Shown piece by piece: positions 1,471-23,874 of a stretch of 51,884 bases of DNA. The position numbers and the translations under genes were made by a program. Numbering within the stretch: the stretch's first letter is position 1; each line of letters starts with the position of its first letter. Under the pieces are notes generated by a model. It saw nothing but the letters and a program-made list of their open reading frames with translations. It had not been told where the DNA came from and did not search any database. This stretch comes from an uncultured Desulfofustis sp. (GTDB lineage: Bacteria > Desulfobacterota > Desulfobulbia > Desulfobulbales > Desulfocapsaceae). Location of the stretch: contig CAJQNS010000104.1 in the NCBI GenBank assembly GCA_905479735.1, forward strand, positions 1 through 51,884, read 5' to 3'.

Positions 1471-3983
1471 TCTTGCTGGAGGTTGCCGTAACCGCACCGG
1501 TGAGGCAGACCTATACCTATTCGGTGGCTGAGGAGACTCTCTTCGGGGAGGACTCTGAAGGATATACTGGGCGGAGAGTATTTGTACCCTTCGGACGACG
1601 TCCGGTTACCGGTTACGTGCTTGGCAGGAGCAAGGTCGATAATGGTGATTTTCAGATCAAACCGATATTGAAAATCATGGATGAGGTAGCATATTTCCCG
1701 GCCGAACAAGTCCCTTTTTTCAGGTGGGTGGCAGACTATTATCACTACCCCCTTGGGCTGGTGATTAAAACAGCACTTCCAGCAGGTTTAAGCGCAGGGG
1801 CCAAAAAGACAGTGCGCCTGACAGACAAGGGACGCGGTTTGTCCCTGGGAAACCTGCCTGAGAAGACTATAGCCAAAGCCTGGGTTGGCAACCTGCTGAA
1901 ATCCGGCAAATTGAACAGCAGTGAAACCAGCAAATTACTCTCATCAAAAGAAGATCAAGATATTATTAACACCCTCATCGATGCAGAAATTATCGTTTTG
2001 CAGAGCAACCTTGAAAAGGATCGGGTACGAGCCAAACAAGAAATCTGTTTTGCTTTGACTGAGGCACTTAAAGACTGTTTTGATGCTAATGATGATCAAG
2101 TAAAAATCAAAGAGTTGTGTGATGGGGCAGCAGGACGATCCCTGACCGGAGCAGAAGTTAAAACGCTCACCCTTCTTCACAAAATGCAGGGATTGCAGTC
2201 AGGGGAGGTAATACCGCAAAAGGAACTACGCAAGTGTTATCCATACGGGAATAGATTGTTGAATAAACTGGCTGCCGATGGGCTGGTTGAAAAAATCAGC
2301 AGGAGGGTATACAGAAGCCCGTTTGGCGACTTGCTGCCTTTCTACCCGAGGCCGGAAAAATTGAGTGGCGAACAGGCACGTGCCATCAAAGCTGTCAGTC
2401 AGGCAATCAATCAACAGGACTATAAGCCTTTTCTACTCCACGGAGTTACAGGAAGCGGTAAAACCGAAGTCTATCTCGAGGCAGCGGAAGAAGCTGTTTC
2501 CCTGGGAAGAAGTGTGCTTGTACTGGTACCTGAAATTGCTCTGGCCACTCAGATCGAAGCTCACTTCATCTCTCGATTCAAAGGTAAAGTGGCACTGCTC
2601 CACTCTGGACTCACACCGGGTGAGCGCTTTGACGAATGGTGGCGTGTCCTTAAAAAGAAGGCGAGTATCGTCATTGGCGCACGTTCAGCGGTCTTTGCCC
2701 CGCTGGAAAATATCGGTTTGATAATTGTCGATGAAGAGCACGATTCGAGCTTCAAACAGGAAGACGGGCTCTGTTATAACGGCAGAGATCTTGCCCTGGT
2801 CCGGGCCAAGTTGGTGGGTTGCGCTGTCATTCTGGGCTCAGCTACCCCTTCGATCATAAGCCACTATCACAGCCGAACCTCTAAGTATCATCTCCTCGAG
2901 ATGACAAAAAGAATTGGTGATAGGGGCTTACCAAAGCCCAGCCTGGTTGATCTGAAATCTGGACAAGGAAAAAATGGATTTAGGTTGTTCCATCCTGAGT
3001 TGCAGAAGTGCCTGGAAGAAACCTTTGATCAATCCCAGCAATCGATTCTGCTGTTAAACCGGCGTGGTTTCGCCACCTCCGTAATCTGCAGGGAATGCGG
3101 TACCGTGGTTGAGTGCAGCCACTGTAAAGTGAGCCTCAACAGGCATCGGCAGAAAAACCTATTGCTCTGTCACTATTGCGGCTTCAGCCTGACTGGAGCT
3201 GTGAGCTGCCGGGAGTGCAATTCCACTAATCTGCATCCCATTGGATTCGGTACCGAGAGAGTGGAGGAGGAGGCCCAAAAACTGCTGCCGGAAGCCAAAA
3301 TCGCCAGGCTCGACTCTGACGTGGCGGCTGACAGAAAACGATTCCTGAAAATTCTGAAAGCGATGCACGACAGAGAGATCGATGTGTTGGTGGGCACCCA
3401 GATCATTGCCAAGGGACTTCATTTCCCGCATGTGTCCCTGGTTGGCATTGTGACCGCCGACAGCGGTCTTGGATTTCCTGATTTCAGGGCGGCTGAAAAA
3501 ACCTATCAATTGATTACCCAGGTCACCGGGAGGGCAGGGCGCGGCGAGGTGAGGGGCAAGGTCATCATCCAGACCCATCAGCCGGATCATTACGCAATCT
3601 CGCTGGCCGCCTCCAATAATTATCAAGCTTTGGTCGAAAGGGAACTGACCGTGCGCAGAGAGGTGCTATTTCCCCCCTTTTGTCGTCTGGTTTTTATTAT
3701 CGTCGAGGACTCAGAAGATCAGGCTGCCAGAAAATCATCCCATACGATAGTTGAAATGGCGAGGGGCTGGTGCCGGACGCATGATGCAGCTCAGTCACTG
3801 ACAGTCCTCGGTCCCGCCCCCGCGCCACTGGAGAGATTGCGGGACCGCTACAGGTGGCAGATTCTGCTCAAGGCGACCCGATTACAACCGCTTCACAGCC
3901 TGGTCGATTGGATTTCGACCACTTATCAAGCAAAAGCTCAAACCAGAGTTATCGTCGATATCGATCCGGAAAATATGCTGTAA
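1467..3983 (+). CDS. priA: Primosomal protein N' (replication restart helicase PriA)
   Basis: PriA (838 aa) is a 3'-5' helicase that reloads the replisome at collapsed forks. The N-terminal 3'-DNA-binding domain is followed by the helicase core: Walker A GVTGSGKTEVYLEA near residue 330, the DEEHDSSFKQ box, and helicase C motifs such as GTQIIAKGLHFPHV and QVTGRAGRG. Between them are eight cysteines in four CxxC pairs (CRECG, CSHC, CHYCG, CREC), the zinc module of PriA. It is about 100 residues longer than E. coli PriA (732 aa), with the extra length in the poorly conserved stretch around residues 120-260. It is coupled to galU by a 4-bp overlap. The convergent dus gene ends 45 bp downstream, and no clear terminator lies between. 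Confidence 0.95.
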   Translation: MILLEVAVTAPVRQTYTYSVAEETLFGEDSEGYTGRRVFVPFGRRPVTGYVLGRSKVDNGDFQIKPILKIMDEVAYFPAEQVPFFRWVADYYHYPLGLVIKTALPAGLSAGAKKTVRLTDKGRGLSLGNLPEKTIAKAWVGNLLKSGKLNSSETSKLLSSKEDQDIINTLIDAEIIVLQSNLEKDRVRAKQEICFALTEALKDCFDANDDQVKIKELCDGAAGRSLTGAEVKTLTLLHKMQGLQSGEVIPQKELRKCYPYGNRLLNKLAADGLVEKISRRVYRSPFGDLLPFYPRPEKLSGEQARAIKAVSQAINQQDYKPFLLHGVTGSGKTEVYLEAAEEAVSLGRSVLVLVPEIALATQIEAHFISRFKGKVALLHSGLTPGERFDEWWRVLKKKASIVIGARSAVFAPLENIGLIIVDEEHDSSFKQEDGLCYNGRDLALVRAKLVGCAVILGSATPSIISHYHSRTSKYHLLEMTKRIGDRGLPKPSLVDLKSGQGKNGFRLFHPELQKCLEETFDQSQQSILLLNRRGFATSVICRECGTVVECSHCKVSLNRHRQKNLLLCHYCGFSLTGAVSCRECNSTNLHPIGFGTERVEEEAQKLLPEAKIARLDSDVAADRKRFLKILKAMHDREIDVLVGTQIIAKGLHFPHVSLVGIVTADSGLGFPDFRAAEKTYQLITQVTGRAGRGEVRGKVIIQTHQPDHYAISLAASNNYQALVERELTVRREVLFPPFCRLVFIIVEDSEDQAARKSSHTIVEMARGWCRTHDAAQSLTVLGPAPAPLERLRDRYRWQILLKATRLQPLHSLVDWISTTYQAKAQTRVIVDIDPENML

Positions 3984-4028
3984 TCTGACGATTTAGGGCA
4001 GCAAGAACAGAGTGAAGCCCGGCCGCTA

Positions 4029-4988
4029 TCAACCAATAGTCTGAAGGAAAGATCTCAGCGAGATGAAATCCTGTTGCTCAAAGATTTCTTTTCTTACCTT
4101 TGAACTGTTTGGAAAGCCTTTGAAATACTTTCCAAGATGATTCTTGATTGAGCCGAGGCAACGGTTGGGTTCTTTGATATGATAGTCGATGAGTTCAAGG
4201 TGTCTGCTCACCACTGCCGTTACCCCGTCAACACTTACGGGCCTTTCCTCGACCGAGAATACCCAGGGGTTGCCAATTGCCGCTCGGCCGATAAGGACCC
4301 CGTCACAACCGGATTGACGCATTCGAGTCAGAGCCTGCTCGTTGCTTTGTACATCACCATTTCCGAGAACAGGGATTTCTGCTGAAGCTTTGGTTTCTTT
4401 AACTATGGCCCAGTCCGCCACACCCGAGAATCCCTGCTTCCAGGTCCTCCCATGAACGCAGACAGCAGAAACTCCATTGGTCTGGGCCATGCGCGTGAAA
4501 TCACCCGCGCATATAGTTTTGCTGTCGGGCCCTGAACGGATTTTCAGGGTGACCGGGCAGGAACTGCTGTCTACGACAGCCCTGATTATTTTCTCTGCCA
4601 GACCAATATCGGTCATCAGCGCTGCCCCGGCGCCCCGTTTGGTAACCTTTTTTACCGGACAGCCCATGTTGATGTCGATGAAATCTGGCTCATAGGGGGC
4701 AAGAATTGCAGCAGCTTCACCCATTATCGCAGGATCTGCACCGAAAAGCTGAAAAGACACGGGTCGCTCTTCGTTGCAACTGGCCAGCATCGAAATGGTT
4801 TTTGATTGCCCATAGACCAGACCATGGGAACTGATCATCTCTGAGACACAGAGGCCTGCGCCGAATTGTCGGCAGAGCAGGCGAAAAGGCAGGTCACTGT
4901 AACCGGCTAGTGGGGCCAGAACGAGAGGACTGCTGAGGGAAATGGAACCTATGGACAGCATGGCATGGGGATAACGGCTGGAGTACAA
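4029..4988 (-). CDS. tRNA-dihydrouridine synthase (DusB-like)
   Basis: This FMN-dependent enzyme (319 aa) reduces uridines in the tRNA D-loop to dihydrouridine. The TIM barrel begins with LSSPLVLAPLAGYSDLPFR and carries the catalytic cysteine in DINMGCPVKKV, the tRNA/FMN-binding KIRSG and VHGRT motifs, and GRAAIGNPW. The longest frame starts at TTG 4988, with AAAGGGG eight bases upstream. An ATG at 4961 would give a DusB-like N-terminus but has no Shine-Dalgarno. A GC-only hairpin lies right at this start (separate entry). The gene is last in the apparent dnaB-leuS-lptE-dus run. The DusB-versus-DusA/C assignment rests on wording only. Confidence 0.9.
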   Translation of the reverse strand: MYSSRYPHAMLSIGSISLSSPLVLAPLAGYSDLPFRLLCRQFGAGLCVSEMISSHGLVYGQSKTISMLASCNEERPVSFQLFGADPAIMGEAAAILAPYEPDFIDINMGCPVKKVTKRGAGAALMTDIGLAEKIIRAVVDSSSCPVTLKIRSGPDSKTICAGDFTRMAQTNGVSAVCVHGRTWKQGFSGVADWAIVKETKASAEIPVLGNGDVQSNEQALTRMRQSGCDGVLIGRAAIGNPWVFSVEERPVSVDGVTAVVSRHLELIDYHIKEPNRCLGSIKNHLGKYFKGFPNSSKVRKEIFEQQDFISLRSFLQTIG

Positions 4989-14253: not shown

Positions 14254-15297
14254 ATGTCTTTTGTTGACGAAGCAAAATTTTACGTCAAAGGTGGAGATGG
14301 CGGTAATGGCTGCGTCAGTTTCCGAAGGGAAAAATACGTTCCAAAAGGAGGCCCCAACGGCGGTGACGGAGGTAGAGGCGGCAGCGTCTATATAAGGGCA
14401 ACCAAAAAAATCCAGTCATTGATCGATTTTAAATATCGATCTCACTTCAAGGCTGGGCGGGGAGGTCACGGACAGGGCAAAGATAAACATGGCGCCAAGG
14501 GAAGCAGTCTTGTGATAGAGGTTCCGACCGGTTCGGTGATCAAGGATGTCGATTCAGGTCAAATCCTTGTTGATCTCACTGATGAAGGGCAGGAATATCT
14601 CGCTGCCGGCGGTGGGAAAGGGGGGCTCGGCAACACCCACTTTGCCAGCGGCTCTAACCGAACTCCCCGGATAGCCACAGACGGCAGACTGGGAGCAGAG
14701 CGATGGTTGAAGATAGAGCTTAAACTGATTGCCGATATCGGTCTGGTAGGACTTCCAAATGCTGGTAAATCGAGTCTGCTGAGCAATCTGTCCGCCGCTA
14801 ATCCCAAAATAGGTGACTATCCATTCACCACACTGGAACCACAGTTAGGAATATTACGGGATAAATACTCGAATCCCTATATTATCGCAGATATTCCGGG
14901 TCTAATTGAAGATGCCCACAAAGGTGTAGGGCTTGGGCACTCTTTCCTCAAACATATCGAAAGAACTTCTATTATCCTTCATGTGATAGACATTTCCGAA
15001 GATGACCATCGTCACAACTACCTGGTTCTGGAAAACGAATTAAAGAAGTACAAAGATGGATTGTCCGACAGGGTCAAAGTAATTGCTCTCAACAAAACCG
15101 ATCTTGTCGATCCGGATATGGTCCTTGAAATTGAAGCCGAATATCGGAAAAGCGGTATAGAAGCAATGAGTGTTTCTGCCTTGTCAGGTTCGGGGATTGC
15201 CAATCTACGATTGAAGTTGATCGAAATGATGGAAGACCTTGAGCAGGAAACTGACTCACCCAGTGATGACCACAACGAGGTCACCGACGATGATTGA
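14254..15297 (+). CDS. obgE: GTPase Obg
   Basis: Obg (347 aa) is an essential ribosome-associated GTPase. The glycine-rich Obg fold (residues 1-157) has the usual GGDGGNGCVSFRREKYVPKGG wording, here residues 13-33. The G domain has Walker A GLPNAGKSSLLS, switch GDYPFTT, DIPGLIEDAH, and NKTD. A short acidic tail ends in DDD. The stop overlaps proB by 8 bp. Confidence 0.97.
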   Translation: MSFVDEAKFYVKGGDGGNGCVSFRREKYVPKGGPNGGDGGRGGSVYIRATKKIQSLIDFKYRSHFKAGRGGHGQGKDKHGAKGSSLVIEVPTGSVIKDVDSGQILVDLTDEGQEYLAAGGGKGGLGNTHFASGSNRTPRIATDGRLGAERWLKIELKLIADIGLVGLPNAGKSSLLSNLSAANPKIGDYPFTTLEPQLGILRDKYSNPYIIADIPGLIEDAHKGVGLGHSFLKHIERTSIILHVIDISEDDHRHNYLVLENELKKYKDGLSDRVKVIALNKTDLVDPDMVLEIEAEYRKSGIEAMSVSALSGSGIANLRLKLIEMMEDLEQETDSPSDDHNEVTDDD

Positions 15298-16450
15298 TGA
15301 TCTATCTCGTAAGGACGGCCTTTACTTACGCCAGACTCTGTTCGATAAATCCAGGAGAATCGTCGTTAAGGTCGGCAGCGCAGTGCTCACCGATGAGCAT
15401 GGCATCGCCCTGGAGGTAATCGAAAACATTGCCAGAGAGATCGCTTTTCTGCATGACAGCGGCCGAGAGGTTATACTGGTCAGTTCCGGAGCTGTGGCCG
15501 CCGGTCGGGCCAGGATCGGTTTCAAGAACGGTACGTCGGAATTAGGTATAAAAGAGAAGCAGGCCCTGGCTGCCATCGGTCAATCGAGTCTGATGCAGAT
15601 CTATGACCGGGTGTTCAGTTCACGCTCTCAGATTATAGCCCAGGTCCTGTTGACCCATAAGGACCTGGCGGTCAGAAAACGTTATCTAAATGCCAGGAAT
15701 ACACTGTTCACCCTGTTCAAGTTTGGGGCAATACCCGTTATAAACGAAAACGATACGGTTTCGGTTGAGGAGTTGCGTTTCGGTGACAACGATATGCTTG
15801 GCGCCCACATCTGCAATCTGATCGAAGCCGATATGTTTATCTGTCTGACAGACGTGGTCGGTATGTATACCGGTAACCCGGCCTCGGATCCGCAGGCCCG
15901 TCCAATTTACACGGTAGATGAGATTACCCCTGAGGTTGAGGCCATGGCTTCGCATGCCAAAAGTAAACTTGGTACCGGGGGAATGAGGTCAAAAATAAGG
16001 GCTGCAAAGATTGTTTCAGCAGGTGGGGGGAGTTCATTTATTGGTCCTGGCCGGGAACCGGATATTTTAAGAAAATTGTTCAGCGGCGAGATGGTAGGTA
16101 CCTTCTTTCTGCCTCACAAGGAAAGGATCAGCGGCAGAAAACGCTGGATCGCCTCGGTCTTGAAACCAAAAGGAAAGCTGATTCTCGATGAGGGAGCCTG
16201 TAAAGCTCTGGTGGAAAACAACAGGAGTCTTTTACCCTCCGGCATAAAAAAAGTTGAAGGTGATTTCGGTGTCGGTGACGCCGTACACTGCGCCACTATC
16301 GAAGGTCAGAACATAGCCGTTGGCCTGATCAATTACAGCTCCGTTGATATTACAAAAATTCGGGGGTATCATTCCCGTGAGATTGAAAAAATTCTTGGCT
16401 ACTGCGACAGTGAAGAGGTGATACACCGGGACAACATAGTACTTTTGTGA
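15290..16450 (+). CDS. proB: Glutamate 5-kinase
   Basis: ProB (386 aa) phosphorylates glutamate in the first step of proline synthesis. The amino-acid-kinase domain has VVKVGSAVL, SSGAVAAGR, NENDTVSVEELRFGDND, and GTGGM; residues ~295-375 form the C-terminal PUA domain seen in E. coli-type ProB. A longer frame exists upstream (TTG 15239), but ATG 15290, overlapping the obgE stop and preceded by CGAGG, gives the normal N-terminus. The 19-residue lead before the first kinase strand is slightly long. It is followed 31 bp on by proA. Confidence 0.95.
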   Translation: MIDDLSRKDGLYLRQTLFDKSRRIVVKVGSAVLTDEHGIALEVIENIAREIAFLHDSGREVILVSSGAVAAGRARIGFKNGTSELGIKEKQALAAIGQSSLMQIYDRVFSSRSQIIAQVLLTHKDLAVRKRYLNARNTLFTLFKFGAIPVINENDTVSVEELRFGDNDMLGAHICNLIEADMFICLTDVVGMYTGNPASDPQARPIYTVDEITPEVEAMASHAKSKLGTGGMRSKIRAAKIVSAGGGSSFIGPGREPDILRKLFSGEMVGTFFLPHKERISGRKRWIASVLKPKGKLILDEGACKALVENNRSLLPSGIKKVEGDFGVGDAVHCATIEGQNIAVGLINYSSVDITKIRGYHSREIEKILGYCDSEEVIHRDNIVLL

Positions 16451-16481
16451 CAGTCCTGATAAACGCGCACGAGAGGAATCC

Positions 16482-17738
16482 ATGGCGATCGAGCAGATGA
16501 TACAGGAGATGGCTCGCAAGGTGCAAGGGGCCTCCCAAGATCTGGCCTGCCTGTCAACGGCAACGAAGAACTTGGTGCTGACTGATGTGGCCCGATTTTT
16601 GGAGTCAGATAAAAAGCAGATCCAACAGGAAAATCTTAAGGATCTTGCCTCCGGTCGGGAGCGCGGCTTGTCAGCGGCAATGCTTGACCGACTTGAGCTT
16701 TCCGATAAGGTGTTCGAGAGCATGGTCGGCGGAATCGAGGAGGTGATTGCACTGCCAGATCCCATTGGCCGAATTTCTGATATGTCCCGTCGTCCCAATG
16801 GTATCACCGTGGGCAGAATGAGGATCCCGCTTGGTGTGGTGGCGATGATCTACGAATCAAGACCCAATGTTACCATCGATGCTGCAGTGCTCTGTTTGAA
16901 AGCCGGAAACGGTGTCATACTGCGAGGCGGCTCTGAGGCCATTCATTCAAATTTAGCCCTGGCGGCCATTTTACAAAAAGCCTTGGGAAAAAATAAGATA
17001 AACCCGGATGGTGTCCAGGTTGTAAACACCACGGATCGTCAGGCAATCGAGTACCTGCTGCAGCAGGAAGAAAGTATTGACCTGATCATTCCCCGCGGCG
17101 GTGAAGGTCTGATCCGGTTCGTTTCCCAAAACTCAAGGATTCCGGTACTCAAGCATTATAAGGGAGTATGTCACATCTACGTCGACGCTGAAGCTGATCT
17201 GGAGAAGGCGACACCCATCATCATGAACAGCAAAACCCAGCGTCCTGGTGTCTGCAATGCACTCGAGGGGCTGCTTGTCCATCGCTCTGTGGCGGCCGAA
17301 TATCTTCCTCTGCTGGCAGAAGAGTTCGACAAAGCCGGGGTGACTATGGTCGGCTGCGCTGAAACCAAGACCATCTGTCCTGGCGCTGAGCCTGCAGAGG
17401 ATAGTGATTGGGGTACAGAGTGGCTGACTCTTAAATTATGTGTCAAGGTGGTCGGTTCTGTTGAAGAGGCTAAAACGTATATTGCCACTTACGGTTCAAA
17501 GCATACAGAAACCATCATCACCGAGAATTATACAACCGCCCATGAGTTTCTCTCGAGCGTCGACGCTTCAGCGGTGATGGTCAATGCCTCTACCCGGTTC
17601 AATGACGGGGGCCAACTCGGCCTGGGAACAGAAATAGGGATAAGCACCACCAAACTGCATTCTTATGGGCCTATGGGGTTGGAAGAGTTGACTACAAGGA
17701 AGTTCATAATTTACGGTACCGGTCAGGTACGTGATTGA
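16482..17738 (+). CDS. proA: Glutamate-5-semialdehyde dehydrogenase
   Basis: ProA (418 aa) reduces glutamyl-5-phosphate to the semialdehyde with NADPH, the step after ProB. The aldehyde-dehydrogenase fold shows IPLGVVAMIYESRPNVT, LKAGNGVILRGGSEA, the catalytic cysteine in QRPGVCNALEGLLVH, and NASTRFNDGGQLGLGTEIGIS (residues 367-387). Full length. GAGAGG precedes the ATG. The stop shares a base with the nadD start (TGATG). Confidence 0.96.
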   Translation: MAIEQMIQEMARKVQGASQDLACLSTATKNLVLTDVARFLESDKKQIQQENLKDLASGRERGLSAAMLDRLELSDKVFESMVGGIEEVIALPDPIGRISDMSRRPNGITVGRMRIPLGVVAMIYESRPNVTIDAAVLCLKAGNGVILRGGSEAIHSNLALAAILQKALGKNKINPDGVQVVNTTDRQAIEYLLQQEESIDLIIPRGGEGLIRFVSQNSRIPVLKHYKGVCHIYVDAEADLEKATPIIMNSKTQRPGVCNALEGLLVHRSVAAEYLPLLAEEFDKAGVTMVGCAETKTICPGAEPAEDSDWGTEWLTLKLCVKVVGSVEEAKTYIATYGSKHTETIITENYTTAHEFLSSVDASAVMVNASTRFNDGGQLGLGTEIGISTTKLHSYGPMGLEELTTRKFIIYGTGQVRD

Positions 17739-18382
17739 TGCAAAAGATCGGTCTGCTGGGTGGGACTTTCGATCCGGTCCACAACGGACATCTGCAGCTG
17801 GGCGACCGGGTTCTGGAAAACTACGACTTGGATAAAATTCTTTTTATCCCTGCGGCCAAACCCCCGCATAAAAATGAAGCGGTCTCTGCTGTTGGGCATC
17901 GCCTGCAGATGCTCAAATTGGCGATAGGTGACAACCGTCGTTTCGATTTTTCCGAAATAGAGATCTCACGGGAAGAAGTTTCTTACACTTTCGATACCAT
18001 CCAGGAGTTGAAAAGGGACGGTGGGGCAGGGGTTCTCTACCATTTCATTATAGGCTACGATGCCCTTTCTGAAATAGAAACCTGGTACCGTTGGCAAGAT
18101 TTGCTTGGGGTTACCAATTTTATTGTTGCGGTAAGGCCAGGTTTTTCCTTAAAAGAGATAGAACAGCTGCTTGAACGTAACGGTTTTTCCCCCGAAGATG
18201 GTAGAGCCGATAGATGGATTGGCGAACAGACTGGAAATGAGATACTGTTTCTTGCCGGCGAAATTGCGGATATTTCCTCTACTGAAATCAGATCCAGGAT
18301 AACAAGCAGAAAGCCATGGGCTGACTTGGTTCCGCCCCTAGTGGCCGACTACATAATTACCAATCGACTCTATTATAAATGA
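17738..18382 (+). CDS. nadD: Nicotinate-nucleotide adenylyltransferase
   Basis: NadD (214 aa) adenylates nicotinate mononucleotide in NAD synthesis. The start reads MQKIGLLGGTFDPVHNGHL with the nucleotidyl-transferase GGTFDPVHNGH motif, followed by PPHK, and the second motif ISSTEIRSRI near residue 185. ATG 17738 is preferred to TTG 17735, one codon earlier. The gene follows proA in a proBA-nadD order common in bacteria. Confidence 0.95.
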   Translation: MQKIGLLGGTFDPVHNGHLQLGDRVLENYDLDKILFIPAAKPPHKNEAVSAVGHRLQMLKLAIGDNRRFDFSEIEISREEVSYTFDTIQELKRDGGAGVLYHFIIGYDALSEIETWYRWQDLLGVTNFIVAVRPGFSLKEIEQLLERNGFSPEDGRADRWIGEQTGNEILFLAGEIADISSTEIRSRITSRKPWADLVPPLVADYIITNRLYYK

Positions 18383-18426: not shown

Positions 18427-19638
18427 ATGGAAGCCAATACTCTCAACTATTCTGTCAACAAAAGCATCCGCCTGCTGCTGGTTGACGATTCGGAGTTGTT
18501 CAGGAAATTTATTACTGAGCTGCTGGCTGACAATAGTGCTTTGTCGATCATTGGCGAGGCGGGCAACGGCGGTGAGGCTCTCGAAATTCTTGAAAAGTCT
18601 AATCCGGACGTCATTCTGCTCGATATGGAAATGCCGGTGATGGATGGTATGGAGGTACTGCGGCAGATCAGGGAGCATAATTCTGCTCCGGTCATCATGG
18701 TTTCAAGCCTCTCCAGAGAAGGTTCCGCGCGTTGTTTTGATGCTTTGAAAAATGGGGCTGTCGATTTCATCGGCAAGGATTCGCTGCACCCGAAAAAAGG
18801 CGTTGATCTACTCAAAAAGGAACTTCTTTACCGAATACTCTGTGCCTCAAGAGTTCAATCAAAAAAGCAGTCCAGAGATTTTCAAAGAGAATACCCTGTT
18901 GCCCCTGACGAGGCTCAGAAAAGACGCATTATATTCTGCGAGGACTGCGGTACCAGAAATATCATAGAGCCGCAACCAGAGGGGGGAATAGAGGAGCTTC
19001 GCTGCCGTCAGTGCGGCGATCTGCTTGAAGCCATAGTCATAACAAAGTATCGAAGGGTTTCTGCGGTCGCTGTAATTGGAGCAGGACGGGGAGCTGCAAA
19101 CAATCTGCTCAATATCATTCCCAAAGTACCTGAAAACTGCGCAACAACCATGATTGTCGTAATGCAGGAATCTGCTGATTTTATCGAATCATTCACCAGG
19201 TATCTGAATGCGGTCAGTTCGGTTAAGGTCATCCGCCTTGCTGAAGGAATGAATATCGAGGGAGGAAACTGCTATATCGCCTCCAGTCATGATCATTTCA
19301 GTATGGTCTCTCACAGTACCAACTACACGATCAGGAAGGGCACCCCGGTATCCGGTCGTGGCGCTCTCGATCTGATGTTTGAATCGATCTCCTCGATTCT
19401 CAAAAATCGTATGTTTGCTTTGGTTCTATCCGGGCATCAGCTCGATGGCGATAAAGGTATGCAGCAGGTCAGAAGTAACAATGGCTATGGTGCCGTTCTT
19501 AACGCCGCCAGCTGTCTCTGCAAGGAATTGGGTGAGAATATTCTGCGTAAGAGCGCGATTGATCGCATCGTCGACGAGCAGGATTGTATAGAACTGTTGA
19601 TGACCTACGCCAACGGTCAGGATTCAAAAGTGCAGTGA
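18427..19638 (+). CDS. Response regulator with inserted zinc ribbon and degenerate CheB-like domain
   Basis: This 403-residue protein has three parts. Residues 14-130 are a receiver domain with the acidic pair D20-D21, phosphoacceptor D66, and K117. Residues 171-196 hold two CxxC pairs (C171/C174 and C193/C196), a likely zinc ribbon. Residues 213-395 align along their length with the CheB methylesterase. In CheB the triad is Ser-His-Asp. Here GASTGG has become GAGRGA (Ser to Gly220), the His position appears to be Gln247, and only Asp340 in LDGDKGM remains. It is therefore probably not an active methylesterase or deamidase and may be a phosphorylation-controlled binding protein. No che genes are nearby; it follows nadD by 44 bp and precedes ung. 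Confidence 0.8.
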   Translation: MEANTLNYSVNKSIRLLLVDDSELFRKFITELLADNSALSIIGEAGNGGEALEILEKSNPDVILLDMEMPVMDGMEVLRQIREHNSAPVIMVSSLSREGSARCFDALKNGAVDFIGKDSLHPKKGVDLLKKELLYRILCASRVQSKKQSRDFQREYPVAPDEAQKRRIIFCEDCGTRNIIEPQPEGGIEELRCRQCGDLLEAIVITKYRRVSAVAVIGAGRGAANNLLNIIPKVPENCATTMIVVMQESADFIESFTRYLNAVSSVKVIRLAEGMNIEGGNCYIASSHDHFSMVSHSTNYTIRKGTPVSGRGALDLMFESISSILKNRMFALVLSGHQLDGDKGMQQVRSNNGYGAVLNAASCLCKELGENILRKSAIDRIVDEQDCIELLMTYANGQDSKVQ

Positions 19639-19680
19639 GACGACCATATTGCCAATAGACAGAACCGGAAGGTGACGCCA

Positions 19681-20346
19681 ATGTTATGGGAAGAACAGGT
19701 TGATCTGCTCAGACAAGGAGTCCACAGGGAACTGATTATACAGGCATACGGAGAGGCGGCCAGGGGAAGAAAAGTATATCCTCCCAGAGAGCGTGTCTTC
19801 GACGCCATGCGCATTACCGATTTTTCCCGAGTCAAGGTGGTGATCCTCGGTCAGGATCCCTATATCAACGAACATCCGCAACTCGGTCCGGAAGCACATG
19901 GGCTGTGTTTCTCTGTAAAAGAGGGAATCGCCGCACCACCTTCGCTAAAAAATATATTTCAGGAGATAGACAACAGCCTGCACGGCGGTGTCAGGCGTGA
20001 GGTCAGCACCGATCTTACCAGATGGGCAGAACAGGGGGTTCTGCTGCTCAATGCTTCATTGACGGTAATTGCCAAACAGTCTAACTCGCATGCTCACCTG
20101 GGCTGGCATGCGGTCACGGATAATATCATTGAGACGATCTCTGAGCGCAAGGAGCATGTAGTTTTTATGCTCTGGGGATCCTTTGCCCAAAAGAAGGCTG
20201 CCCTCATTGACTTGAATAAACACCTGGTGCTGAAAACCAGTCATCCGTCGCCACTATCAGCCCACAGGGGATTTCTGGGTTCGGGGGTTTTTGTCAAATG
20301 CAACAACTATCTGAAGAAAAACGGGATCAAGCAGATCAACTGGTGA
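19681..20346 (+). CDS. ung: Uracil-DNA glycosylase (family 1)
   Basis: Ung (221 aa) excises uracil from DNA to begin base-excision repair. It has the water-activating motif VVILGQDPYINEHPQ, the uracil-stacking GLCFSV, LLLNASLTV, and the leucine-loop HPSPLSAHRGFLGSG. ATG 19681 has GGAAGG eight bases upstream. A GTG three codons earlier (19672) overlaps that Shine-Dalgarno and is less likely. It is convergent with the CBS gene, 14 bp apart. Confidence 0.95.
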   Translation: MLWEEQVDLLRQGVHRELIIQAYGEAARGRKVYPPRERVFDAMRITDFSRVKVVILGQDPYINEHPQLGPEAHGLCFSVKEGIAAPPSLKNIFQEIDNSLHGGVRREVSTDLTRWAEQGVLLLNASLTVIAKQSNSHAHLGWHAVTDNIIETISERKEHVVFMLWGSFAQKKAALIDLNKHLVLKTSHPSPLSAHRGFLGSGVFVKCNNYLKKNGIKQINW

Positions 20347-20810: not shown

Positions 20811-22411
20811 TTTTCCTCTTCCATCACTTCTTTGAGTGCCGGAGACAGTTCATCTGCCAGATCTGAGGCGTTGAAACCTACTCCTATACGTTTTTGTAGC
20901 CGGTCACCACTAAGTCCGTGCAGATATACGCCATAACGGGCAGCGTCAACAGGCACCATTCCCTGACAGACAAAGGAGCCGATCAGCCCGCTGAGCACAT
21001 CTCCCATGCCTCCGGCCGCCATTGACGGGTTGCCGGTCCGGTTGACCCAGATCGAAGTGCCGTCGGTCGTCAGGGTGCCGCTGCCTTTCATTACTATAAT
21101 CAGTTCTGAGTCAGGTGTCTTGTAGTGTTCGTAGCAACCACGCAGGGCAGCCATTCGGTTGTTCTGCACCAGAGACGAACTAAGACCTGTGAGCCTGGCC
21201 ATTTCACCGGGATGAGGGGTGAAGATGCGCGGTCCTGAAGGGGTGGGGAGATCATTCTTTTGCAAAGCAAGAATGTTGAGAGCGTCGGCGTCGATTACCA
21301 TCGGTATTGTCGTAAGTTGATATAATTCAAGGACGAGCTCAGCAGTTTTTACATCCAGACCGAGTCCTGGACCGATGACGATACAGCTTTTATCCTCCAA
21401 CTCATCGACAATTTTGTCGAAATCATCTATGGAGAGAAAATTCGGTGTGTCAACCACAATGGTCATAGCTTCTGCCAGAGCTGACTCATAGATGGTGTTG
21501 AGTCCTGAAGGGGCGCAGATGCTCACCAGTCCGCATCCGCTTCTGATTGCTCCTCTGGCAGCAAGCAGTGCAGCGCCCGTCTTGCCGGTCGAACCACCCA
21601 TTATCAAGAGATGACCGAAACTTCCCTTATGGCTCTCGGTTGATCTCTGCAGAAATGCGCTCATAATAGAGTGGTCCTGCTGGTCAACAGCTGCGCCTTC
21701 TACAACCACCTGGTCAAGTACTTCGGGGGGAATACCTATGTCAATGACCTGGAGGTTACCCACCAGAGGCAGACTCGAGGGAAGTACCTGGCCGAGCTTG
21801 GCATATCCATAGGTGGCGGTAGCCCAGGCTTTGATACAGCAGCCCAGTATGGTGCCGCTGTCAGAGCAGAGGCCTGAGGGGGTATCGACGGCTATGACCG
21901 GAGTGTTTGTGGCTCTGCTCAGGCTGTTGATCAGTTCTATGTTGTCGAAAAAGTAGCCTTCTATGTCCCGGTCAAGCCCGGTGCCGAAGATCGAATCTAC
22001 AATGGCGAGTGGCGGCCCGTGTAACAGTGACATCTGCGCAATTGTTTCTGACACTTGCCGCAGAGCGTTTGAGTTGGTACAGATTAGGGCGGCTATGTCG
22101 AGTTTGTTGACAATTGCCAGATTGGAGGCGCTGTCACCTTTGAGTTGCTTGGGCTCAACAAGAAAGACAAGCAACGGGACCCCCTTTTTCTGGTAGAGAT
22201 GCCTGGCAATAACGAGGCCGTCGCCGCCGTTATTGCCAGGGCCAATGAAAATTGGGACAAATTTGTTTTCGAATGAACCAAGAAGACGTTCCATCAGCGC
22301 AACGGTGCCCACTCCGGCATTTTCCATGAGTAGTATACCGGGAATTTTGAACTCATTGATGGCGCACTGGTCGATCTGTCGCATCTGCTCTGCATTTGGA
22401 AGTTTCATCAT
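20807..22411 (-). CDS. nnr: Bifunctional NAD(P)H-hydrate epimerase / ADP-dependent dehydratase
   Basis: Nnr (534 aa) repairs hydrated NADH and NADPH. The N-terminal YjeF epimerase half (residues ~1-235) has LLMENAGVG and IGPGNNGGDGLVIARHL. The C-terminal ribokinase-like dehydratase half (~245-525) has GSTGKTGAALLAARGAIRSG, IDADALN, FTPHPGEMARL, and the GMGDVLSGLIG catalytic motif. Length and order match E. coli YjeF/Nnr. It overlaps lptF/G upstream and the CBS gene downstream by 4 bp each. Confidence 0.95.
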   Translation of the reverse strand: MMKLPNAEQMRQIDQCAINEFKIPGILLMENAGVGTVALMERLLGSFENKFVPIFIGPGNNGGDGLVIARHLYQKKGVPLLVFLVEPKQLKGDSASNLAIVNKLDIAALICTNSNALRQVSETIAQMSLLHGPPLAIVDSIFGTGLDRDIEGYFFDNIELINSLSRATNTPVIAVDTPSGLCSDSGTILGCCIKAWATATYGYAKLGQVLPSSLPLVGNLQVIDIGIPPEVLDQVVVEGAAVDQQDHSIMSAFLQRSTESHKGSFGHLLIMGGSTGKTGAALLAARGAIRSGCGLVSICAPSGLNTIYESALAEAMTIVVDTPNFLSIDDFDKIVDELEDKSCIVIGPGLGLDVKTAELVLELYQLTTIPMVIDADALNILALQKNDLPTPSGPRIFTPHPGEMARLTGLSSSLVQNNRMAALRGCYEHYKTPDSELIIVMKGSGTLTTDGTSIWVNRTGNPSMAAGGMGDVLSGLIGSFVCQGMVPVDAARYGVYLHGLSGDRLQKRIGVGFNASDLADELSPALKEVMEEEK

Positions 22412-23874
22412 TCTGTCTTGCCGCCCTGTTCAGATTGACGTTCTTCGGTCTGCTTGTCTATGAGGATCGTTCTGCAGAACATGCAGGGGTCGAAACCGGC
22501 TTTCAAGGCGACCCGACTGTCTTTGAATTCTACCGAACAATCCTGACTATAGTAATAGTCACATTCTGGGAAATGGAAAATACGCGTCCTGGCATTACCT
22601 CGTAAAATTTTGTTCTGGGCTAGCTCTTTAGCCGCCTCGGCATCCTCATCTTTACTACGGTCCGAGCGAATCAGGGAGTAGCCTTTACGGAATAGTTCGA
22701 CTATTCCAGTGACGATTTTTTCGAATATCTGTTGGATGTATGGTGATACCAGTGGTTGTTCGTGGGCCACTCTGTGGATGGCGATAATTGCCAGAAAACA
22801 AAGCAGGGTATTGGGCAACCACATGATCAGTGGAACCGGCAGTGCCCCACCGGTGGCCAGGTTTCTCGACATCGTGAACATGATGTAGTAGGTGATATAG
22901 AGGGTCAGGCCGAAAGGTATTCCGATAGCGCGTCTGCCAGGTCCTGCCTGCAACCCGAGCGGCATGCCCAGCAGAGATAGGAAAAAACAGCCCACTGGCA
23001 GTACCAGTCTTTTGTGGAATTCGGTGTGATAAGCCCTGCCACTATCGGTCTTCAACCCTTTTTCCCGGGCTTGGTCCATGAGCTCTGTCATATTCATGGT
23101 CCCACGTTTTTTGAAATTGGGAGCCCTGGCAGGCAATTTCAGCGGAATTCTGATTACGTAACGATCGAAGGAGACGCTCTGGGCTCTGTCTTCCTCAGGA
23201 ATTTGCATTGTCCCATTTTTGAGAATAAGTGTGACCACCATCGTATCCATATCGGTGTCCATGGTTCCGAAACGAGCCATGGTGATGGCAGGAGTCGTCC
23301 TGTTGCGCATGTCTGAGACCCAGACATTATTCCAGATGCCGGTGTCTGGATCGGTATAATCGATATGGACAACCAGGTCTCCCAGCGCCTCAGTAAAGGT
23401 TCTTTCTCTGACACCTTTATCTATTTTCTCCTTGGCCAGCTGATACATCATGTGCTGCATTGCCGTATCACCTGCCGGTATCAATCTGATGGAAAAATAT
23501 CCCGTTATCAGAGATATAATAAGCGAGACAATTATCAGTGGCGGCAGGGCCTGATAGATGCCGATACCGCTCGCTTTGAAAGCGAGAATCTCGGTGTCGT
23601 TGGCCAGCCTGGAGAACCCGATGGTGATACCGAGCATGGAGGCCATCGGTATCGAGTAGAGAAACATATTGGGGAAGAGGTAGGAAAACAGCCTGATGAA
23701 ATCCCCCAAACTGATGTTGAGTTCAAGAACAAGGTTCAGGAAGGGAATGAGTTTTATCAGGAAGAAAACGCCGTTCATGATCAAAAAGCTGGCCAAAAAT
23801 GGTGCCAGCATCTCTGTTGCCAGATAGCTGTAAAACAAAAGCGGCAGTCTTTTTTTTCCCTGGAAAATTGACAT
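22408..23874 (-). CDS. LptF/LptG-family LPS export permease with C-terminal zinc-binding extension
   Basis: This 488-residue protein has a YjgP/YjgQ core (~1-375): TM segments near residues 20-45, 60-80 and 100-125, a jelly-roll periplasmic domain, and three more TM segments after KRLVLPVGCFFLSLLGMPLG. It would move lipopolysaccharide out of the inner membrane with LptB and LptC. E. coli LptF and LptG are only ~360 aa. Here an extra ~110 residues follow the last TM, ending in a cluster HxxxC (H434, C438), C446 and PCMFC (C464, C467) reminiscent of Ada-type metal-binding modules. A paired second permease is absent here. I cannot decide between LptF and LptG. Confidence 0.85.
   Translation of the reverse strand: MSIFQGKKRLPLLFYSYLATEMLAPFLASFLIMNGVFFLIKLIPFLNLVLELNISLGDFIRLFSYLFPNMFLYSIPMASMLGITIGFSRLANDTEILAFKASGIGIYQALPPLIIVSLIISLITGYFSIRLIPAGDTAMQHMMYQLAKEKIDKGVRERTFTEALGDLVVHIDYTDPDTGIWNNVWVSDMRNRTTPAITMARFGTMDTDMDTMVVTLILKNGTMQIPEEDRAQSVSFDRYVIRIPLKLPARAPNFKKRGTMNMTELMDQAREKGLKTDSGRAYHTEFHKRLVLPVGCFFLSLLGMPLGLQAGPGRRAIGIPFGLTLYITYYIMFTMSRNLATGGALPVPLIMWLPNTLLCFLAIIAIHRVAHEQPLVSPYIQQIFEKIVTGIVELFRKGYSLIRSDRSKDEDAEAAKELAQNKILRGNARTRIFHFPECDYYYSQDCSVEFKDSRVALKAGFDPCMFCRTILIDKQTEERQSEQGGKTE

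Follow-up and report, generated by a model that had tools for sequence, protein, structure and literature searches.

CheB is a textbook response regulator with an enzyme as output, and its opening on phosphorylation exposes the catalytic face. As reported in one study, the two domains of CheB come apart at their interface once the receiver is phosphorylated (PMC8609364). The CheB methylesterases/glutaminases of Salmonella (1a2o), P. atrosepticum (6ymz) and T. maritima (3sft) share with the protein described here the order of a receiver followed by a CheB fold, with Z scores of 25-28. This protein is encoded on a stretch of 51,884 nucleotides of an uncultured Desulfofustis sp. (contig CAJQNS010000104.1), which as a whole is referred to as the window.

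The gene (18427..19638, plus strand) is an open reading frame with an ATG start, whose product of 403 aa comprises a receiver, a putative zinc ribbon and a CheB domain with an apparently dead active site (hereafter the dead CheB protein; together with its orthologues, the ribbon family). This composition had been proposed in the initial annotation and was borne out by the reading frame, Pfam searches and alignment. The receiver domain spans residues 12-145 (18460..18861, plus strand) and includes a Response_reg match (PF00072) at residues 17-119 (4e-24). The CheB-fold domain, residues 209-395 (19051..19611, plus strand), includes a CheB_methylest match (PF01339) at residues 216-386 (6e-26), and both matches lie above the curated cut-offs. 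With the NCBIfam model for chemotaxis CheB, NF001965, the protein scored 217.3 bits, which is below the cut-off of 293. The ribbon (residues 168-200; 18928..19026, plus strand) is inserted into the linker joining both domains in E. coli CheB, its cysteines being arranged as C171-x2-C174 and C193-x2-C196. Pfam matches to the ribbon were weak, DZR and the other curated zinc-ribbon families remaining below the cut-off; judged by its sequence, it should bind zinc. A scan of the gene region for promoters and terminators did not exceed chance level.

Alignment with E. coli CheB assigned the nucleophile Ser164 to Gly220 (19084-19086), the motif GASTGG reading GAGRGA, and His190 to Gln247 (19165-19167), whereas the catalytic Asp286 is kept as Asp340 (19444-19446). 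These three assignments agreed with what had been claimed beforehand. In addition, Met283 corresponds to His337. The alignment of the receiver revealed an intact acidic pair (D20, D21), the phosphoacceptor D66 (18622-18624), the Ser/Thr residue (S93) and the Lys (K117).

Searches were made for orthologues that keep the triad and for orthologues with the same ribbon and losses. None of the former was detected: each of the 34 orthologues that include this position has Gly in place of the nucleophile Ser, and the four cysteines of the ribbon are likewise invariant (34/34). The catalytic His was present in 10 out of 35 orthologues, ten other residues occurring at this position across the family, and the catalytic Asp in 25 out of 35. 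Because His is still found in these ten orthologues, the family is defined by the loss of Ser and not by that of His. The losses of Ser and His had initially been treated alike, which was right for Ser, but did not hold for His as a family trait. Cys282 is present in 34 of the 35 orthologues; N226, L227, L228, Y259, C282, Y283, S297 and C363 are all near-invariant. The receiver residues are conserved in 32-33 of 34 orthologues. Degenerate receivers were seen in L029, in which D66 is changed to Gly, and in L030, which lost the acidic pair; in such lineages the protein may be constitutively active in form. For comparison, 82 further REC-CheB proteins were aligned, among them true CheBs from Desulfocapsaceae; Ser, His and Asp were present in 77, 79 and 80 of these, respectively. 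The exceptions were related degenerate paralogues, the family member L057 and a PilZ fusion.

Judged by the loss of Ser, the protein should lack enzymatic activity, and its CheB output most likely hydrolyses nothing. Some residual or new chemistry may occur in the dead domain, since Asp340 and the glycine-rich loop persist. These same two features, and a Cys282 that is shared with related degenerate CheBs, would also suit an enzyme acting by altered chemistry on a substrate other than a chemoreceptor, e.g., by means of Cys282 or by water-mediated catalysis at Asp340. However, a His position that varies to ten other residues and the loss of Met283 are unlike a maintained catalytic site, and we regard such an enzyme as quite unlikely.

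An AlphaFold model (mean pLDDT 74.6, with low confidence in the linker including the ribbon) was compared with the catalytic domain of T. maritima CheB (3sft). The comparison gave a Z score of 28.2 and an rmsd of 2.0 Å over 186 residues at 22% identity, and according to this model the CheB fold is retained despite the missing nucleophile. For the dead CheB domain, dN/dS values of 0.06 and 0.08 were obtained against two relatives at 79% identity (Nei-Gojobori), which are rough values, as dS is high. They speak against free drift and for a strong constraint.

A profile search detected the protein in 76 of 93 Desulfocapsaceae genomes, nearly always as a single copy; the gene is thus nearly core to this family. 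The weakest full-length member from Desulfocapsaceae gave approximately 3e-76, while matches elsewhere in the sample of the order were at approximately 1e-52 or weaker and mostly partial. Among 395 genomes of the phylum, no full-length match was found outside Desulfocapsaceae. L193 and L197 gave weak matches by tblastn, which were dismissed as chance, being located within proA as judged by the position of nadD. A decaying relic or pseudogene without function might account for the divergence of L029 and L030 and for the clean absence of the gene in some genomes, such as G033 of the Desulfocapsaceae, in which nadD is directly followed by ung. This explanation is already contradicted by the constraint, and the presence in 76 genomes, the invariant cysteines and frames that are open throughout the orthologues oppose it as well, so that we deem it hardly credible.

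The dead CheB gene lies 44 bp downstream of nadD (17735..18382, plus strand; PF01467) and 33 bp upstream of ung (19672..20346, plus strand; PF03167), which encodes a member of the uracil-DNA glycosylase superfamily. Synteny showed the former neighbor to be conserved and the latter to be usually conserved. Further upstream (14254..17738, plus strand) are genes belonging to clusters common to several genera, which we take to be obg, proB and proA. The conserved row reads rplU-rpmA-obg-proB-proA-nadD-X-ung, where X is the dead CheB gene. In a survey of other genomes, the gene directly followed the proA-nadD row in 18 out of 20 neighborhoods (17 by gene call and L148 by the position of nadD), the remaining two showing an unrelated context. 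Thus, the position between nadD and ung given in the initial annotation was correct, but the gene does not stand alone there, as a whole gene row is conserved. Usually ung comes next, a different gene following in three of the 18 genomes; in L154, L158 and L162 the dead CheB gene precedes a short ORF (119-130 aa) belonging to another shared cluster. The intergenic gaps are short in many other genomes too, although they reach approximately 350 bp elsewhere. In the genome studied here, the gene is likely co-transcribed with both neighbors. Other families of the order retain proB-proA-nadD, but lack the dead CheB gene. This distribution is most simply explained by an arrival of the gene at its present site in the family's stem, followed by vertical inheritance with some losses. 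At 22408-23874 (minus strand) the window also encodes an LptF/LptG-family permease, whose C-terminal extension gave a weak match to the Ada metal-binding domain (3e-4, slightly short of the cut-off).

One orthologue departs from the common architecture. In the single-contig genome G016 (L170, approximately 3480-4140), it consists of the receiver and the ribbon only (212 aa) and is followed by ung; the dead CheB domain has thus been dropped there, possibly by decay. This case bears on the proposal that the ribbon is the real output and binds nucleic acid or the transcription/translation machinery, the dead CheB domain only shielding or dimerising it. The invariant ribbon cysteines and the association of the gene with ribosomal-protein and obg genes would fit this proposal. 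Yet G016 is a single genome that may reflect decay, the CheB domain is strongly constrained and kept in nearly all orthologues, and no nucleic-acid-binding ribbon family of Pfam exceeded the cut-off. Therefore, we consider the ribbon unlikely to be the output.

Chemotaxis families were sought one by one in the host genome (3.99 Mb, 90.65% complete). MCPsignal, CheR and CheW gave no match in this genome, while the positive controls were matched. The dead CheB protein contains the sole CheB domain of the host, and this holds for all five genomes of the genus, four of which lack CheR. Altogether, seven genomes that are at least 90% complete carry the gene without CheR, including G015, G069, G074 and G076 from beyond the genus. 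As the host has no matches for MCP, CheR and CheW and no other CheB, a role of the protein as chemoreceptor methylesterase is very unlikely there. The earlier suggestion that the protein acts outside chemotaxis is therefore strongly supported for the host genome. Elsewhere in Desulfocapsaceae, the dead CheB protein coexists with true CheBs, and many members possess CheR. The latter, together with the location of its nearest relatives in MCP-CheW-CheY-CheA clusters, could indicate that the protein is still a chemosensory component, e.g., a phosphate sink for CheA. The content of the host genome argues against it, as do the 20 neighborhoods, which show the household row or, in two cases, an unrelated context. 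For the genus, such a role is already largely contradicted, and we judge it very improbable overall.

In a maximum-likelihood tree, the ribbon family formed one clade (support 100/100) that adjoins a group of altered proteins, named group A, and is set apart from true CheB. Both groups together constituted one clade with a support of 100/99, and the ribbon family may either be sister to group A or have arisen inside it. The ribbon was ruled out as driver of the grouping, since the clade stayed at 100 when the ribbon was cut out, one row of that alignment still carrying its ribbon. Group A comprises the degenerate REC-CheB proteins L206_4, L184_0, L208_1 and L219_a, which come from Desulfobulbales and from elsewhere in the phylum. 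Two chemosensory clusters with altered-site CheB-like proteins were inspected, L206 6186-19436 (G202) and L219 35-8692 (G487), neither of which contains CheR in the annotated stretch. The cluster in L206 begins with the protein of group A, which weakly matches DUF4388, followed by MCP, CheW, CheY, CheA, an altered CheB of a further group (group B) and a ParA-like ATPase with a zinc ribbon; that in L219 has the order CheB-like, MCP, CheW, CheY, CheA. A counterpart of the ribbon-containing ParA partner of these cluster-borne relatives was not found in the host, the only ParA-like match there lacking the ribbon region (query 56-301).

Around the nucleophile, the motif grades from STGG in true CheB via SEGGY in L218 and L219 and AEGGY in group A of Desulfobulbales to G-x-G in the ribbon family. 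L218 and L219 have kept Ser, one of them with His and one with Tyr. A Cys preceding Tyr is common to groups A and B and the ribbon family, at a place where true CheB reads [AV]YIAPG. This series suggests a stepwise decay of the active site, from Ser to Ala and then to Gly, and an escape from the chemosensory cluster, the order of steps being deduced from extant forms. The likely path starts with a CheB paralogue of a CheR-poor array, for which catalysis became dispensable; its site would then have decayed, and one copy would have gained the ribbon and moved. The ancestor would thus have been a paralogue in a chemosensory cluster, whose altered descendant reached its place next to nadD and ung in the Desulfocapsaceae stem.

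Taking these data together, we consider it fairly probable that the protein is a phosphorylation-switched, non-enzymatic adaptor response regulator with a dead CheB-fold output. Its phosphorylation-switched and non-enzymatic character, already put forward in the initial annotation, is supported by the intact receiver residues, from which phosphorylation can be predicted, and by the loss of Ser. Given an intact receiver chemistry and a missing nucleophile, the protein is most simply understood as one in which phosphorylation would gate the access to a presumed binding face. An ordinary histidine kinase would feed the phosphoryl group to the receiver. Most likely, phosphorylation would then open the domains as in CheB and expose the dead domain on its pocket face, together with the ribbon, which lies in the linker that has to move during opening. 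The exposed face or ribbon would bind or release a protein partner, resulting in a phosphorylation-gated adaptor. Against the adaptor reading stands a locus without a linked kinase or target, the neighbors being household genes; among the shared gene clusters of the 20 neighborhoods, no recurring kinase or signalling partner was detected. The full switch is not available to all members, because the receivers of L029 and L030 are degenerate and G016 has the receiver and the ribbon only.

A wider interpretation is offered tentatively, as possible but somewhat doubtful. The CheB fold might have left chemotaxis wholly, via a readable series of intermediates with Ser-Glu, Ala-Glu and Gly at the nucleophile, and become a phospho-gated binding module. 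As a lineage-core class of response regulators, made of a dead methylesterase and a linker zinc ribbon, it would control some cellular function of sulfur-metabolising bacteria, in which chemosensory arrays may be lacking. The family has long been kept between two household genes, also in bacteria in which no chemotaxis proteins were detected, and has probably taken on a new job as a phosphorylation-controlled binding protein. An enzyme domain that is apparently dead and yet strongly conserved, in genomes without detectable chemosensory proteins, provides a natural test of the CheB fold and of receiver gating without catalysis. Furthermore, domain searches call the genes of the ribbon family CheB, and counting them as such would give false evidence of chemotaxis in MAGs. 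In the genome paper on Desulfocapsa sulfexigens, two CheB genes were counted among the chemotaxis parts (PMC3739170). One of them, UWK_02813, probably belongs to the ribbon family, as judged by gene order.

Compared with CheB, the ribbon family has the receiver chemistry and the Asp of the triad in common. Unlike CheB, it has no catalytic Ser, a His that is not maintained and no Met283, it carries a zinc ribbon in the linker and resides in a household gene context, and the genome of its host yielded neither CheR nor MCP nor CheW. Group A, the closest clade, resembles the ribbon family in its altered nucleophile motif (GAAEGGY or GASEGGY) and in the replacement of YIAPG by CYxxS or CYxxA. It differs by a linker without ribbon, by the fusion of several members to DUF4388 (PATAN), by a nucleophile position occupied by Ser or Ala instead of Gly, and by its location with MCP and CheA where clusters were read. 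A partly similar protein, L085_3, is encoded by an ORF of 576 aa in a Desulfobulbus MAG (Desulfobulbus propionicus isolate DOLJORAL78_50_64). It also combines a ribbon of the FCEDCGTR type, a receiver and a dead CheB domain (G-R-C), but its ribbon is N-terminal, a PilZ domain is situated at the C-terminus, and it forms a long branch apart from the ribbon family in the tree. L085_3 hints at a link of dead CheB modules with c-di-GMP. A response regulator combining a dead CheB domain with a ribbon was not described in the literature searched, which covered few subscription journals. Response regulators with a CheB-fold output were already known, and the ribbon family is a variant of these.
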